From: Lacinutrix sp. 5H-3-7-4
GTDB taxonomy: Bacteria > Bacteroidota > Bacteroidia > Flavobacteriales > Flavobacteriaceae
Direction of reading: 5' to 3'
NCBI RefSeq assembly: GCF_000211855.2
Contig: NC_015638.1
Location: 1,798,001-1,862,000 of the forward strand
Length of the DNA: 64,000 bases
A model generated the notes under the pieces. It made no database searches, had not been told where the DNA came from, and worked only from the letters and a program-made list of their open reading frames with translations. A program made the translations under genes and the position numbers. The first letter of the stretch is position 1. The number at the start of each line of letters is the position of its first letter. Below are positions 49,921-54,706 of this stretch, in pieces.

Positions 49921-51225
49921 TTGAAGAATTTTGAATTAAAAATGCCCAAAATGGGCGAAAGTATAACGGAAGGAACCATCATCAATTGGTTAATTTCTGA
50001 AGGAGATAGTTTTGATGAAGGAGATATTATTCTTGAAGTAGCTACAGATAAAGTAGATAACGAAGTACCTGCGCCAGCATCTGGAGTATTGGTTAAAACC
50101 TTATTTCAAGCAAAAGATGTTGTTCCGGTTGGAGAAGTAATTGCTGTGTTAGAAGTTTCAGAAGAGGTAAAAACTTCTAATGAAACAAAGGTCTCGTCGA
50201 GCGCTGTCGAGACGTCTAAAAAGAAACAAAAGACACCAAAAAGACCAAAACCAGTTCAGCAAGCATCAGCTTCAACTTCATTTTCAACATCAAATTCAAA
50301 TACATTCTTTTCACCATTAGTACTCGAAATTGCAAAAGAACATCATATTAGTTTTGAAGAATTAGCCAGAATACCGGCAACAGGTCATGAAGGCAGATTG
50401 CGTAAAAGTGATGTGTTTCAATATATAGAAGAAGGCAGGCCATACAAATTTGCACAACCAGTAGCCGAAAAAGATCCTACGGCTTATCGTATTCCGCAAT
50501 TGCAGTTCGATAAAGGCAAAGGTAAAGTGATTGAAATGGATCGCATGCGCCAAATGATTGCAGATCATATGGTGTATTCAAAGCACACGTCGCCACACGT
50601 TACAGCTTATGTTGAGGCAGATTTAACCAATATGGTAAATTGGCGAAATGCTAATAAAGTGGCGTTTCAAGAAAAGTATGGTGAGCGTTTAACCTTTACA
50701 CCATTATTTGTTGAAGCCGTAGCAAAAGCAGTAAAAGATTTCCCAAATATTAATGCTTCGGTAGATGGTAATAGCATTATAGTAAAAGAAGACATCAATA
50801 TTGGTATGGCAACCGCATTACCAAGCGGAAACTTAATAGTTCCTGTGGTAAAAAATGCAGACACGAAAGATTTAAAAACCATTGCCAGCAATGTTAATGA
50901 ACTTGCAGGAAAAGCAAGAGAAAATAAATTGGCAGGAGACGATATAAAAGGCAGTACGTTCACAATATCAAATGTTGGAACTTTTGGTAGCGTCATGGGA
51001 ACACCAATAATAAATCAACCAGAAGTAGCAATTCTTGCCTTAGGAATTATTAAAAAACGACCAGAAGTTATCGAAACCGAAAACGGAGACGAAATCGCAA
51101 TACGTAGCATGATGTATCTATCATTATCATTCGATCATCGTGTTGTAGATGGTTTCCTTGGTGGAAGCTTCGTAAGACGTGTAGCCGATTATTTCGAGCA
51201 ATTTGATATCAATAGAGACATTTAA
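49921..51225 (+). CDS. Branched-chain 2-oxoacid dehydrogenase E2 (dihydrolipoyl acyltransferase)
   Basis: A 434-residue E2. The lipoyl domain (about 3-77) has the lipoyl-Lys in ATDKVDNEV. A linker (about 80-120) contains VSSSAVE at 91-97, encoded by a palindrome. The peripheral subunit-binding domain follows at about 124-165 (SPLVLEIAKEHHISFEELA), then the acyltransferase core ending in LSFDHRVVDGFLGGSF. The start is TTG at 49921: no in-frame ATG occurs upstream before a stop, and the first ATG at 49942 would cut the first lipoyl beta-strand. Works with E1 from this operon and an E3 encoded elsewhere. Confidence 0.92.
   Translation: MKNFELKMPKMGESITEGTIINWLISEGDSFDEGDIILEVATDKVDNEVPAPASGVLVKTLFQAKDVVPVGEVIAVLEVSEEVKTSNETKVSSSAVETSKKKQKTPKRPKPVQQASASTSFSTSNSNTFFSPLVLEIAKEHHISFEELARIPATGHEGRLRKSDVFQYIEEGRPYKFAQPVAEKDPTAYRIPQLQFDKGKGKVIEMDRMRQMIADHMVYSKHTSPHVTAYVEADLTNMVNWRNANKVAFQEKYGERLTFTPLFVEAVAKAVKDFPNINASVDGNSIIVKEDINIGMATALPSGNLIVPVVKNADTKDLKTIASNVNELAGKARENKLAGDDIKGSTFTISNVGTFGSVMGTPIINQPEVAILALGIIKKRPEVIETENGDEIAIRSMMYLSLSFDHRVVDGFLGGSFVRRVADYFEQFDINRDI
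50191..50213 (+). repeat. Palindromic repeat inside the E2 coding sequence
   Basis: GTCTCG and CGAGAC arms around TCGAGCGCTGT, in frame, encoding VSSSAVE plus a partial codon. Same peptide and orientation as the copy in E1 at 53063-53086. Confidence 0.75.
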
Positions 51226-51286
51226 TTCCTGCGACGTAGCAATCTCTTAGTAAAAGAGAGAGTATATTAATATAAATAGTATTGTC

Positions 51287-51307
51287 ATTCCATATTTGAT
51301 ACGGAAT
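51287..51307. repeat. Short palindromic repeat, E2-ilvE spacer
   Basis: ATTCCATAT.. and ..ATACGGAAT arms, preceded by GTC. A degenerate relative sits at 51225-51243. Confidence 0.65.
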
Positions 51308-51340
51308 CCACAATAAAAAATAAGTTTAATTAATGAGATA

Positions 51341-51356
51341 CCCACTTTCGTGTGGG
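51341..51356. repeat. Short palindromic repeat before ilvE
   Basis: CCCAC/GTGGG stem with TTTCGT loop, 9 bases before the ilvE ATG. Confidence 0.7.
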
Positions 51357-51365
51357 CATAAAATT

Positions 51366-52433
51366 ATGAAACATAACATTTCAATAACAACAGTAACCGA
51401 ATCTAAAGTTAAAGGCATAGACTTTAACAATATTCCTTTAGGTACAACCTTTACAGATCACATGTTTATTTGTGATTATAACAACGGTGTTTGGGAAAAC
51501 CCAAGAATAGAACCAATGGGAATGATTCCTACGCATCCAGCAGCCATGGCATTACACTACGGTCAAGCCATTTTCGAAGGCATGAAGGCAACAGTAGATG
51601 CAGATGGAAACCCAATGTTATTTAGAGCAGATAAAAATGCAGCACGATTAAATACCAGTGCAGACCGTATGGGAATGCCACATTTCCCAACAGATTTGTT
51701 TGTAGAAGGCTTAACAAAATTAGTAGATTTAGAGCGTAACTGGATTCCACCAACCGATGGTAGCGCACTTTATTTAAGACCATTTATGTACGCAGACGAA
51801 GCCTTTATAGGTATGCGTGCAGCAACACATTATAAGTTTATAATCATGGCCTCACCAGCAGGACCATTTTTTAGTAAGCGCATTAGGTTGTGGGCCGAAA
51901 AACATTATATACGTGCCGTAAATGGTGGAACAGGAGAAGCAAAAGCAGCCGGAAACTACGCCGCAGCCATTCGTCCAACAGAATTAGCAAAAGCAAAAGG
52001 ATTCGATCAAGTATTGTGGTTAGATGCTATCGAGCACAAATACATTCAAGAAGTTGGAACCATGAATATTTTCTTTAAAATCGACGGAAAATTCATCACA
52101 CCAAATCGAGACGGTTCTATATTAGACGGTATCACGCGCATGAGTGTAATCGATATTTTAAGAGATAAAGGTTATCAGGTTACAGAGCGTACAATAACCA
52201 TAGACGAGATTCAAGAAGCGGCAAAAAATAAAACATTAGAAGAAGCCTTTGGAACAGGAACAGCCGTTGGTATTGCTTACATTCAAGACATTGGAGTAGG
52301 CGATGAGGTTATACACGTATCCAACGAAAGTCCAGTAGGTTTAGATGTTAACAATACTTTAAACGCCATTAAAACTGGTAAAATAGAAGATAAATTTGGT
52401 TGGATGCTAAAAGTAGAAAATCAGTTAGCTTAA
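51366..52433 (+). CDS. ilvE: Branched-chain amino acid aminotransferase
   Basis: A 355-residue class IV aminotransferase of the mitochondrial-BCAT type. The PLP lysine is in GGTGEAKAAGNYAAAI, and QVLWLDAIEHKYIQEVGTMN follows. It transaminates Leu, Ile and Val to 2-oxo acids, the substrates of the flanking E2 and E1. I chose the ATG at 51366; an ATG 11 codons earlier (51333) would translate through the palindrome at 51341-51356. Confidence 0.94.
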   Translation: MKHNISITTVTESKVKGIDFNNIPLGTTFTDHMFICDYNNGVWENPRIEPMGMIPTHPAAMALHYGQAIFEGMKATVDADGNPMLFRADKNAARLNTSADRMGMPHFPTDLFVEGLTKLVDLERNWIPPTDGSALYLRPFMYADEAFIGMRAATHYKFIIMASPAGPFFSKRIRLWAEKHYIRAVNGGTGEAKAAGNYAAAIRPTELAKAKGFDQVLWLDAIEHKYIQEVGTMNIFFKIDGKFITPNRDGSILDGITRMSVIDILRDKGYQVTERTITIDEIQEAAKNKTLEEAFGTGTAVGIAYIQDIGVGDEVIHVSNESPVGLDVNNTLNAIKTGKIEDKFGWMLKVENQLA

Positions 52434-52443
52434 AATTTTTTGG

Positions 52444-52525
52444 GCGTTACCACAAGGGTCGCGCTTTCCGTTATATCTTTTTTGCTTTTAATGGCAAAAA
52501 AGGATGCCACATCAATCGCTAACGC
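52444..52525. repeat. ~82-bp palindromic repeat, copy 4
   Basis: GCGTTA/TAACGC inverted ends. The inner hairpin is TCTTTTTTGC with GCAAAAAAGGA, a different sequence from copies 1 and 2 but still paired. Confidence 0.8.
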
Positions 52526-52598
52526 AAACTAACGCTAACAAAAAAATCTTTTATACTAATAAAAAAGATTGATTTTGAGATTATAACAAAATAGATAC

Positions 52599-52610
52599 CT
52601 GCTTTCGCAG
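52599..52610. repeat. Short palindromic repeat before E1
   Basis: CTGC/GCAG stem with TTTC loop, followed by ACATG. The first in-frame ATG (52613) lies in this repeat's tail, so the ATG at 52619 is the preferred start. Confidence 0.6.
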
Positions 52611-52618
52611 ACATGAAT

Positions 52619-54706
52619 ATGAAAAAAGAAACACTAAAAAAAGGATTTTCAAAACTCTGCACAGCAAAAGCTATGGCAGAATTATACGAAGCTAATTTTA
52701 AGCAAGTCTCTAAATACGTACACGCTACATCAAGAGGTCACGAAGCTATCCAAATAGCTTTAGGTATGCAGTTATTACCACAGGATTATGCGTTTCCATA
52801 TTATAGAGATGATGCCATGTTATTATCATTTGGTTTAGAACCTTACGATTTAATGTTGCAATTATTAGCAAAAAAAGACGATCCATTTTCTGGCGGAAGA
52901 ACGTACTATTCGCATCCAAGTTTAAAAGATGACGATAAGCCAAAAATACCACATCAATCCTCAGCAACAGGTATGCAAACCATACCAGCAACAGGTGTGG
53001 CTATGGGAATGAAGTATAAAGAACTACAAGGATTGGATGATTATAGTTTAGAATCGGATCCTGTCAGTTCGAGCGCAGTCGAGAACGCTCTAAATCCAAT
53101 AACGGTTTGTTCTTTAGGCGATGCCTCAGTTACCGAAGGTGAAATAGCCGAAGCCTTCCAAATGGCAGCTTTAAAGCAAATGCCAATTTTATATTTAGTA
53201 CAAGATAACGGTTGGGATATTAGTGCCAATGCAGCAGAAACAAGAGCGCAAAATGCTTTTGAATATGCTCAAGGTTTTAAAGGCTTAGAAGCCATTTCAA
53301 TAGATGGTGCTAACTTTACAGAAAGTTACCAAGCGCTAGAAAAAGTAATAGAAACTATTCGTACAGAACGTAGACCATTTTTAGTACATGCAAAAGTGCC
53401 GTTACTAAATCACCACACATCTGGTGTAAGAATGGAATGGTATCGCGACGATTTAGACGAGGCGCGTTCTCGTGATCCATATCCAGTAATAAAACAACAA
53501 TTATTAGATGCAGGATTTTCAGAACAAGAAGTTGAAGAGATAGAAAATTCCGCGAAAGCGAAAGTACAATCAGATTTTGAAAAAGCCTTAAAAGCCGAAG
53601 ACCCAAAACCTGAGGATTTATTTACTAACGATTTTGTACCAACACCAATTACTGAAGAGCAAGGAACACGTGCACCAGAAGGTGCAGATAAAGTGGTAAT
53701 GGTAGATTGTGCCTTATTCGCAGTAGAAGAACTAATGAAAAAGCATAAAGAATGCTTGCTTTACGGTCAAGATGTTGGTGGCAGATTAGGTGGAGTTTTT
53801 AGAGAAGCAGCAACATTAGCTCAAAAATTTGGAGACGACCGCGTATTTAATACACCAATACAAGAAGCTTTTATTGTAGGCTCAACTGTTGGTATGAGCG
53901 CAGTTGGATTAAAACCAATTGTTGAGGTTCAGTTTGCCGATTATATTTGGCCAGGATTAAATCAGTTATTTACAGAAGTAAGTAGAAGTTGCTATTTGTC
54001 TAACGGTAAATGGCCAGTTAGCATGATACTTCGTGTGCCAATAGGCGCCTATGGTAGTGGTGGACCTTATCATTCATCTTCAGTAGAATCTGTAATAACA
54101 AATATTAGAGGTATAAAAATTGCCTATCCAAGTAATGGTGCCGATTTAAAAGGTTTGATGAAAGCTGCGTATTACGATCCAAATCCTGTAGTTATTTTAG
54201 AGCACAAAGGTTTGTATTGGTCTAAAGTACCAGGAACACAAGGTGCAACATCTGTTGAGCCAAGTGAAGATTATGTTTTACCATTTGGAAAAGCTTGGGT
54301 TTTACAAGAAATCTGGAAACAAGAAAATGTAGAAACGTTGACCATTGTTACTTATGGAATGGGCGTACATTGGGCAATGAATGCATCAGAAGAATTAGGC
54401 ATGCAAGACCAAATTGAAGTCATTGATTTGCGTACGTTATTCCCATTAGATGAAGACACGATTATGAAATCGGTTAAAAAAACAGGAAAGTGTTTAGTTG
54501 TTACTGAGGAACCTTCAAATAATAGTTTTGCCAGAGCATTATCTGGAAAAATTCAGGAAGAATGTTTTAAATATTTAGATGCACCAGTAATGACAATTGG
54601 TAGTGAAAACATGCCGGCAATACCTTTAAATTCAACTTTAGAGCAAACCATGATTCCTTCAACAGATAAGGTGAAAGCTAAAATTGAACAGCTAATTAAT
54701 TATTAA
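52619..54706 (+). CDS. Fused E1 alpha/beta of branched-chain 2-oxoacid dehydrogenase
   Basis: A 695-residue fusion, as usual in Bacteroidota. The alpha part (about 1-340) holds the TPP motif CSLGDASVTEGEIAEAFQM to QDNGWDIS; the beta part (about 355-695) has YGQDVGGRLGGVFREA and VPIGAYGSGGPYHSSSVES. It decarboxylates branched-chain 2-oxo acids and acylates E2. Residues 149-155 (VSSSAVE) are encoded by a palindrome in frame, in a loop between KELQGLDD and the TPP motif. Starts at 52619 rather than 52613, which lies in a repeat. Confidence 0.93.
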   Translation: MKKETLKKGFSKLCTAKAMAELYEANFKQVSKYVHATSRGHEAIQIALGMQLLPQDYAFPYYRDDAMLLSFGLEPYDLMLQLLAKKDDPFSGGRTYYSHPSLKDDDKPKIPHQSSATGMQTIPATGVAMGMKYKELQGLDDYSLESDPVSSSAVENALNPITVCSLGDASVTEGEIAEAFQMAALKQMPILYLVQDNGWDISANAAETRAQNAFEYAQGFKGLEAISIDGANFTESYQALEKVIETIRTERRPFLVHAKVPLLNHHTSGVRMEWYRDDLDEARSRDPYPVIKQQLLDAGFSEQEVEEIENSAKAKVQSDFEKALKAEDPKPEDLFTNDFVPTPITEEQGTRAPEGADKVVMVDCALFAVEELMKKHKECLLYGQDVGGRLGGVFREAATLAQKFGDDRVFNTPIQEAFIVGSTVGMSAVGLKPIVEVQFADYIWPGLNQLFTEVSRSCYLSNGKWPVSMILRVPIGAYGSGGPYHSSSVESVITNIRGIKIAYPSNGADLKGLMKAAYYDPNPVVILEHKGLYWSKVPGTQGATSVEPSEDYVLPFGKAWVLQEIWKQENVETLTIVTYGMGVHWAMNASEELGMQDQIEVIDLRTLFPLDEDTIMKSVKKTGKCLVVTEEPSNNSFARALSGKIQEECFKYLDAPVMTIGSENMPAIPLNSTLEQTMIPSTDKVKAKIEQLINY
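53063..53086 (+). repeat. Palindromic repeat inside the E1 coding sequence
   Basis: A 24-base element starting GTCAGTTCGAGCG and ending GTCGAGAAC, in frame, encoding VSSSAVEN. The same heptapeptide occurs in E2 at residues 91-97. Confidence 0.8.

Follow-up and report, generated by a model that had tools for sequence, protein, structure and literature searches.

A TGTC-tagged hairpin repeat is read in frame in neighboring E2 and E1 genes of Lacinutrix sp. 5H-3-7-4 and in unrelated proteins of Flavobacteriaceae

The E2 and E1 genes of a 2-oxoacid dehydrogenase lie close together in Lacinutrix sp. 5H-3-7-4, and each encodes the heptapeptide VSSSAVE within a short palindromic DNA sequence. Are these segments old protein sequence, or copies of a repeat that came to reside in frame within both genes? 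Palindromic repeats that lie in frame owe their fame to Rickettsia, a genus of intracellular bacteria with reduced genomes, and the initial annotation of this locus likened the two segments to the Rickettsia palindromic elements (RPEs), at places where extra residues are tolerable. We addressed the question in a window of 64 kb (the whole stretch of DNA analyzed), taken from a single-contig genome of 3.30 Mb, and in other genomes of the genus and of the family Flavobacteriaceae. The two segments are very probably copies of a TGTC-tagged hairpin resembling repetitive extragenic palindromic (REP) sequences, here called family 1 (f1): they reside in frame, entered E1 as an insertion, and share their place in E2, as in an alpha-2-macroglobulin gene, with a second hairpin family, a pattern from which we infer spread and overwriting. 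The comparison with RPEs was borne out in that the palindromic repeat to which both segments belong is dispersed and is translated in frame where extra residues are tolerated; as an account of how they arose it is partly supported, being right for E1 and in need of amendment for E2.

The E2 gene (49921..51225, + strand) encodes the acyltransferase of a 2-oxoacid dehydrogenase of branched-chain type, with the Pfam domains Biotin_lipoyl (residues 5-77), E3_binding (129-165), and 2-oxoacid_dh (201-428). In the linker between the lipoyl and E3-binding domains, the repeat GTCTCGTCGAGCGCTGTCGAGACGTCT (50191..50217, + strand) is in frame from codon 91 of the open reading frame (ORF) starting at 49921, codons 91-99 reading V-S-S-S-A-V-E-T-S. 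The E1 gene (52613..54706, + strand) encodes a fused alpha-beta subunit of the same dehydrogenase, with the Pfam domains E1_dh, Transket_pyr, and Transketolase_C; its PDB relatives are E1 chains of branched-chain/2-oxoacid and pyruvate dehydrogenases (PDH). Its repeat, TGTCAGTTCGAGCGCAGTCGAGAACG (53062..53087, + strand, bounds taken from 200 aligned copies), is in frame at codon 151 of the ORF starting at 52613 and reads (P)-V-S-S-S-A-V-E-N, the TGTC tag occupying 53062-53065. Letters and translations thus confirmed the starting observation that the same palindromic repeat gives VSSSAVE in both genes. The unit is longer than the 21-mer first quoted, about 26-27 nt with its TGTC tag. When TCGAGCGCAGTCGAG was searched for with up to 3 mismatches, these two places were the sole matches in the window (shuffle mean, 0.24; two matches in 2 of 100 shuffles). 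On a position weight matrix for f1, the E2 copy scored 42.4 and the E1 copy 34.3, against a maximum of 1.5 over 64,722 background windows of the same genes. A local duplication of one copy to give the other seems unlikely, as their stem types differ (AGT..AAC and TCG..ACG).

A search of the whole genome, which the initial annotation had recommended, recovered further copies of the element. TCGAGCGCNGTCGAG had 11 exact matches, covered by nine loci, and TCGAGCGCAGTCGAGA had 13 matches at ≤1 mismatch, while the reversed-pattern controls had none. Three copies lie well inside long ORFs, and each of them reads VSSSAVE: those of E2, of E1, and of a gene outside the window that resembles alpha-2-macroglobulin genes (a stretch of 920 codons in which bacterial alpha-2-macroglobulin domains are recognized). 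Over 31 nt, the macroglobulin copy matches that of E2 with one mismatch. None of the remaining copies passes our coding test (an ORF of ≥150 codons with 30 codons on each side), and several of them form inverted pairs 35-45 bp apart.

The bounds and fold of the element were read from many copies. Aligned on the core, 200 copies show TGTC, a base that is mostly A or T, two variable positions, TCGAGCGCAGTCGAGA, two further variable positions, and T. The flanks are AT rich and unrelated on both sides, the boundary is sharp from TGTC to T, and each base of the tag (positions -7 to -4) is conserved in 86-92% of the copies. f1 is thus a sharply bounded hairpin of ∼26 nt, TGTCWNNTCGAGCGCAGTCGAGANNT, laid out as NN-TCGA-GCGCAG-TCGA-GA-NN with an unpaired TGTC tag, a GA bulge, and the 6-nt loop GCGCAG. 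The variable positions form two stem pairs. Watson-Crick combinations, of all four types, are found at (-1,16) in 421 of 439 copies and at (-2,17) in 400 of 439, where independence would give 127 and 173, respectively; position -3 does not pair with 18 (161 of 439 copies versus 197 expected). Taken alone, the E2 and E1 stretches (38 and 36 nt) do not fold clearly better as DNA than shuffled sequences (z from -0.61 to -0.82). As single-sequence energy is not significant, we took covariation across copies as the proof, and it is this stem covariation, not the folding energy of single copies, that establishes the palindrome.

f1 is widespread in the family. The 18-mer GTTCGAGCGCAGTCGAGA at ≤1 mismatch was present in 162 of 397 Flavobacteriaceae genomes, with zero matches for the reversed control in every row; a scan of named genomes yielded at least 118 stretches among the matches listed. 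The copy scan left out loci L023-L082 and did not include loci from L371 onward, and its coding copies are a sample rather than a full census, with places listed for only part of the 162 positive genomes. The element lives mostly between genes, about half of it as inverted pairs: 181 of the 359 copies outside long ORFs are paired, versus 15 of 64 within long ORFs (p 6e-5), and the 196 paired copies face outward with their tags in 176 cases and inward in 20. These counts, like the clustering of hosts given below, exclude 13 loci titled as other groups and keep records labelled only Bacteroidia or Bacteroidetes. Matches to the f1 pattern also occurred in records labelled Prevotella, Roseburia, Oscillospiraceae, Clostridia, and Treponema (L232, L255, L266, L291, L300), with near-core copies within ORFs; these may be other repeats or contigs assigned to the wrong group.

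Which genes carry f1, and in which frame? The loci analyzed contain 441 distinct copies. The coding test given above, with its limits of 150 codons for the ORF and 30 on each side, is passed by 71, and 64 of these, in 28 homology clusters, were kept after the 13 other-group loci had been dropped. Pfam hits were obtained for 21 of 24 scanned host proteins and for none of the other 3. From their domains we read the hosts as resistance-nodulation-division (RND) efflux proteins, PDH-type E2, alpha-2-macroglobulin, a glycosyltransferase, TrpF, Mfd, MetH, PurL, a HemW-like protein, PolA, LeuS, a MeaB/methylmalonyl-CoA mutase, Eco57I-type methylases, HisA, MetG, BshC, a methyltransferase, a ketoacyl synthase, GltX, and mevalonate decarboxylase. 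Two copies in partner subunits of one complex had seemed striking at first; with f1 in frame in so many unrelated proteins of the family, among them the linker of PDH-type E2, the coincidence is less special.

The frame count suggested at the outset gave a clear bias toward the VSSSAVE frame, designated S0. Over 29 single events, the tally was S0 16, S2 8, S1 1, A0 1, A1 0, and A2 3 (S, sense; A, antisense; chi-square over six frames, p about 2e-7), and with Pfam-identified hosts only it was S0 15, S2 6, S1 1, A0 1, A1 0, and A2 3. Events were obtained by merging by hand the orthologues that share one site and one frame; L128 and L365, where the element is probably upstream of the true start, and inverted dimers at five sites were omitted. 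Sense exceeds antisense by 25:4 (p 1e-4, or 0.004 if one antisense frame is treated as unavailable, an A following GTC being enough to close it), and S0 is enriched among the sense-frame events (p 0.002). The S0 peptide is VxSSAVE (GTC-NNN-TCG-AGC-GCA-GTC-GAG) and the S2 peptide SVRAQSR. In S0, the paired stem positions belong to the second and eighth codons of the peptide, of which VSSSAVEN, VTSSAVEK, and V(R/G)SSAVET are forms; we read this as hairpin pairing that links the two codons, so that their residues would covary, S going with N, T with K, and either R or G with T. Together, these data show a dispersed, sharply bounded, stem-constrained element that is widespread in Flavobacteriaceae and lies inside genes mostly in the S0 sense frame. 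The simplest reason for the bias would be tolerance of a small polar peptide.

For E1, comparison within the genus indicates a true insertion of 12 residues into a loop. A 36-nt (12-codon) stretch around the repeat (53057..53092, + strand) is present in 4 of 11 intact same-genus genes (G000, which is the genome studied here, G011, G008, and G003), and tblastn alignments and the DNA of empty sites show the loop to be 12 residues shorter in the other 7 (G006, G005, G012, G002, G010, G004, and G001); it is from these seven shorter loops that we take the E1 copy to be an insertion, as had been proposed. The broken E1 copy of G009 also lacks the stretch. Of the four carriers, G000, G011, and G008 form one clade (99/96), with no firm placement for G003. 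Two Winogradskyella E1 genes are 93-95% identical to that of the window; in Winogradskyella marina and W. eckloniae, this place in E1 is taken by an inverted dimer, and the E2 of W. eckloniae also carries VSSSAVEN. In an AlphaFold model of E1 (23 sequences; mean predicted local distance difference test [pLDDT] score, 78.5), residues 145-158, between helix 120-139 and strand 164-169, score <50, as do five further segments, so low confidence is not peculiar to the insert. The match to the Thermus alpha subunit breaks at the insert, with residues 135-160 of the query facing only chain residues 162-165. The site as modelled fits a tolerant, flexible loop.

Two observations on the E1 gene of other genomes stand apart from this comparison. 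G009 (L039, L386, L390) has in-frame stops in E1 and a split macroglobulin gene, from decay or poor assembly. In another genus, the E1 of G022 (L040) has a palindrome, GATTCCCAGTCGAGCTGGGAAT, in the same loop; as it is single copy there at ≤3 mismatches, we rejected it as a further example of a repeat.

E2 behaves differently, as the expected discrete insertion is not seen there: same-genus linkers carrying a repeat are of equal length at this place. Instead, four same-genus genomes and, more weakly, a fifth have another tagged hairpin family in the slot, in register with f1. This family, f2 (GTCATTCAGAGCGNNAGCGAAGAATCT; example, GTCATTCAGAGCGATAGCGAAGAATCT), was found by a pattern search that gave 41 matches in 13 genomes of the genus versus 6 for the control, at least four of the matches being the slots themselves, and no match in G000, G011, or G008. 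Weight matrices were built from 32 f1 and 15 f2 copies, slot copies and coding-looking copies being kept out; their background maxima over the windows mentioned above were 1.5 (f1) and 11.5 (f2). At the E2 slot, G000, G011, and G008 carry f1 (scores 26 to 42) and G012, G002, G005, and G010 carry f2 (14 to 26), with G006 weaker (3.5). At the macroglobulin slot, G000, G011, G008, and G007 carry f1 (36 to 48) and G006, G001, and G012 carry f2 (26 to 36), with G009 weaker (10.5). Strong hits exceed all background windows, and within each gene every strong match of either family begins at one and the same codon (shift 0). Macroglobulin loops of the genus are within one residue of each other in length, except in G005 and G004; G005 has an unrelated stretch, CCTTCGACTGCGCTCAGGATAAACTCC, within an f1 remnant, and G005 and G006, which are supported sisters (96/98), differ at this slot. 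In G012, E2 and macroglobulin carry mutually similar sequences, GTTGTTAAAAGCGATAACGAAGAACCT and GTCGTTAAAAGCGATAGCGAAGAATCT, which differ from f1 and resemble f2. Some slots are common to several genera, that of PDH-type E2 to G159, G411, and G294 and that of macroglobulin to two metagenome-assembled genomes labelled Bacteroidia and Flavobacteriaceae. As far as the alignments go, the E2 and macroglobulin sites look like fixed in-frame slots with turnover of repeat families.

Two accounts of this turnover compete. In the first, f1 and f2 would have inserted independently in each lineage into permissive hot spots, with compensating deletions or loss and without any replacement process. It draws on E1, which has both empty and filled sites, and on five proteins in which f1 copies of different species lie at one site or within a few residues of it: PurL (L117/L273), MetH (L097/L221), the glycosyltransferase (L140/L181), TrpF (L314/L344), and Mfd (L325/L355). 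Because the frames of f1 differ between species there, the same loops must have been hit more than once. The account sits poorly with the E2 and macroglobulin sites, where the two families start at exactly the same codon, length is equal in E2 and one codon off in macroglobulin, and no clearly shorter site was seen within the genus; more variation in position and length would be expected. We regard independent insertion as a serious contender that still falls short of being probable. In the second account, fixed slots are rewritten from outside by the prevailing hairpin family, with the frame kept and the length nearly kept; we propose it tentatively, aware that it may well prove wrong. Without a clearly shorter E2 or macroglobulin site in the genus, replacement and ancient insertion are not separable at these two places. 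A separate observation concerns the MeaB/methylmalonyl-CoA mutase fusion (L290, L225): where one species carries f1 in reverse, another carries a third sequence resembling a repeat, GATTCTTCGACAAACTCAAAATGAT.

Several points weigh against our reading of the repeats and their turnover. That lack of shorter sites is one of them. The exchange is not strictly length neutral, as macroglobulin loops with f2 lack one codon, directly behind the slot, relative to those with f1. Occupancy is also incomplete: neither family is matched by the E2 linker in G003, G001, or G009, the G004 linker is weak for both, and among the 12 macroglobulin genes scored, G010, G002, and G004 match neither clearly. The matrices cross-react because the families share positions; f1 macroglobulin slots score 0.4 to 11.8 on f2, and the value for G008, 11.8, is just above the f2 background maximum. 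On the macroglobulin tree with the slot removed, parsimony counts only 2 switches of family, or 3 if G005 is scored as f1, at forks with weak support (4 on a protein tree widened by two other lineages, again with G005 as f1). The hand merging of orthologues behind the frame tally was done after the data had been seen. REP-like DNA may also arise over conserved protein, as at 53549-53569 of E1 (CGCGAAAGCGAAA, read NSAKAKV): we rejected this sequence as a second in-frame repeat, as relatives within the genus show no length difference there and an almost identical peptide, several keeping NSAKAKV with other codons. Finally, matches to PF01797, the Y1 transposase domain of REP-associated tyrosine transposases (RAYTs), do not follow f1 as they might. 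PF01797 is absent from the genome studied here at E ≤ 0.001, and although a match occurs in 81 of 162 f1-positive versus 75 of 235 f1-negative genomes (p 4e-4, 397 genomes), among genomes of ∼2.6 Mb or more the figures are 77 of 155 versus 60 of 150 (odds ratio 1.48, p 0.11).

We therefore rejected a RAYT as the mobilizer of f1, given that absence and the weak association across the family. Genomes whose best PF01797 match is only weak number 48 of 155 f1-positive versus 30 of 150 f1-negative (p 0.035), and the high-copy genomes G213 (43 f1 copies) and G165 (40) have no match. In the explanation that we favor, f1 copies would spread as selfish or neutral DNA via single-stranded hairpins, mobilized in trans by some enzyme; copies that land in frame within a linker or loop would survive, with a small polar peptide as the likely reason that S0 is tolerated; and existing slots would then be overwritten by whichever hairpin family is active in the genome.

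Two other explanations fare much worse than these. A domesticated peptide or RNA element, acting for instance in subunit contact or mRNA control, could explain slots common to several genera and stem pairing kept in 67 and 66 of the 71 coding copies at the two pairs, but the near-exact core matching used to find coding copies favors intact ones, the host proteins are unrelated, seven same-genus E1 genes do without the element, and the E1 loop is of low model confidence. We consider such a role very unlikely, and in the dehydrogenase the f1 peptide is probably without a function of its own. Also very unlikely is that VSSSAVE-like residues are an old linker whose likeness to the repeat is secondary: the initial annotation had asked whether the peptide occurs without the repeat DNA, and the one such case (E2 of G004, DSLSPVEES within DSLSPVEESKK, with different codons and only a weak repeat match), the macroglobulin loops VTSNASET (G002) and VTSGSDEES (G018), and the conserved NSAKAKV speak for it, against DNA likeness to dispersed copies far above background, the near identity of the E2 and macroglobulin copies of one genome, a different family in both proteins in same-genus species, and the empty sites that largely refute it for E1.

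How does f1 compare with known systems? Like RPEs, f1 is a short palindromic repeat that lies in frame in many unrelated, likely functional proteins, in loops and linkers that tolerate it. It differs in belonging to another phylum and in being much shorter than RPEs, which the available part of PMC10969869 describes as ∼150 bp and in frame in Rickettsia genes; the likeness drawn here is one of mode of residence. A further difference is that two families, f1 and f2, here occupy the same slots in different species of one genus. In the passages available of Di Nocera et al. (2013, PMC3733652), RPE-4 and RPE-6 are assigned to families 4 and 1, respectively, of the CGTC-tagged REPs. These passages describe four families, found in five phyla including Bacteroidetes, with an unpaired terminal tag CGTC or its variants TGTC/CCTC, a loop of 4-5 bases, a CCA-type tail, mostly HH dimers, intragenic copies, and no dedicated transposase; they also report that two Xanthomonas species have different REPs at roughly one site of recB, and the reference list includes Higgins 1988 on REP evolution by gene conversion. 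f1 shares with them the unpaired terminal TGTC tag, the short hairpin, the inverted dimers, and the intragenic copies. It differs from them, as far as those passages describe them, in lacking the two AT first stem pairs, its stem consisting of two covarying pairs and TCGA/TCGA with a GA bulge, in its 6-nt loop, and in the absence of a CCA tail from the 200-copy profile; f2 (ATTC...GAAT) looks closer to the CGTC REP stem than f1 does. By this comparison f1 resembles CGTC-tagged REPs, having only some features of the four described families. With GTAG REPs and the RAYT-associated REPINs it shares an imperfect hairpin, doublets, and genome-wide dispersal, but its tag is TGTC, not GTAG, and PF01797 is missing from its own genome and from some of the highest-copy ones. 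The string "Flavobacter" does not occur in the main text of PMC3733652, and the available part of PMC12306157 includes Flavobacterium genomes among its REP counts, with no mention there of intragenic or in-frame copies. Within open-licence PMC full text, we recognized no paper on f1 in coding regions of Flavobacteriaceae, on the frame bias, or on slots with two families; what is already known is the kind of element.

The surroundings of the two genes contain further repeats. The ORF between E2 and E1 we take to be a branched-chain aminotransferase gene. Just after E2, at 51283-51310, TGTCATTCCATATTTGATACGGAATCCA looks like another tagged hairpin with a CCA tail. Upstream of E1, at 52440-52530, lies a repeat of ∼90 nt (GGGCGTTACCACAAGGGTCGCGCTTTCCGTTATATC ... 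GGATGCCACATCAATCGCTAACGC) whose core recurs exactly at locus L002 of the same genome, with an f1 hairpin in its middle, and also at other same-genus loci.

For annotators, recurring VSSSAVE and VTSSAVEK peptides are to be taken as repeat derived and not as conserved motifs. The pattern of turnover is unusual, and two families on the same codons of two unrelated proteins bear on whether REPs spread by transposition or by gene conversion. If slots are indeed rewritten, several unrelated proteins would change the same loop peptide together (VSSSAVETS in one species, whereas a second species of the genus has VVKSDNEEP and VVKSDSEES) through a process like gene conversion or templated by single strands, and DNA hairpin pairing would dictate which residues of a protein covary, as in the S0 peptides above. 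Marine Flavobacteriaceae, with many sequenced genomes and cultivable strains, make the tolerance, frame choice, and mobility of such repeats testable.

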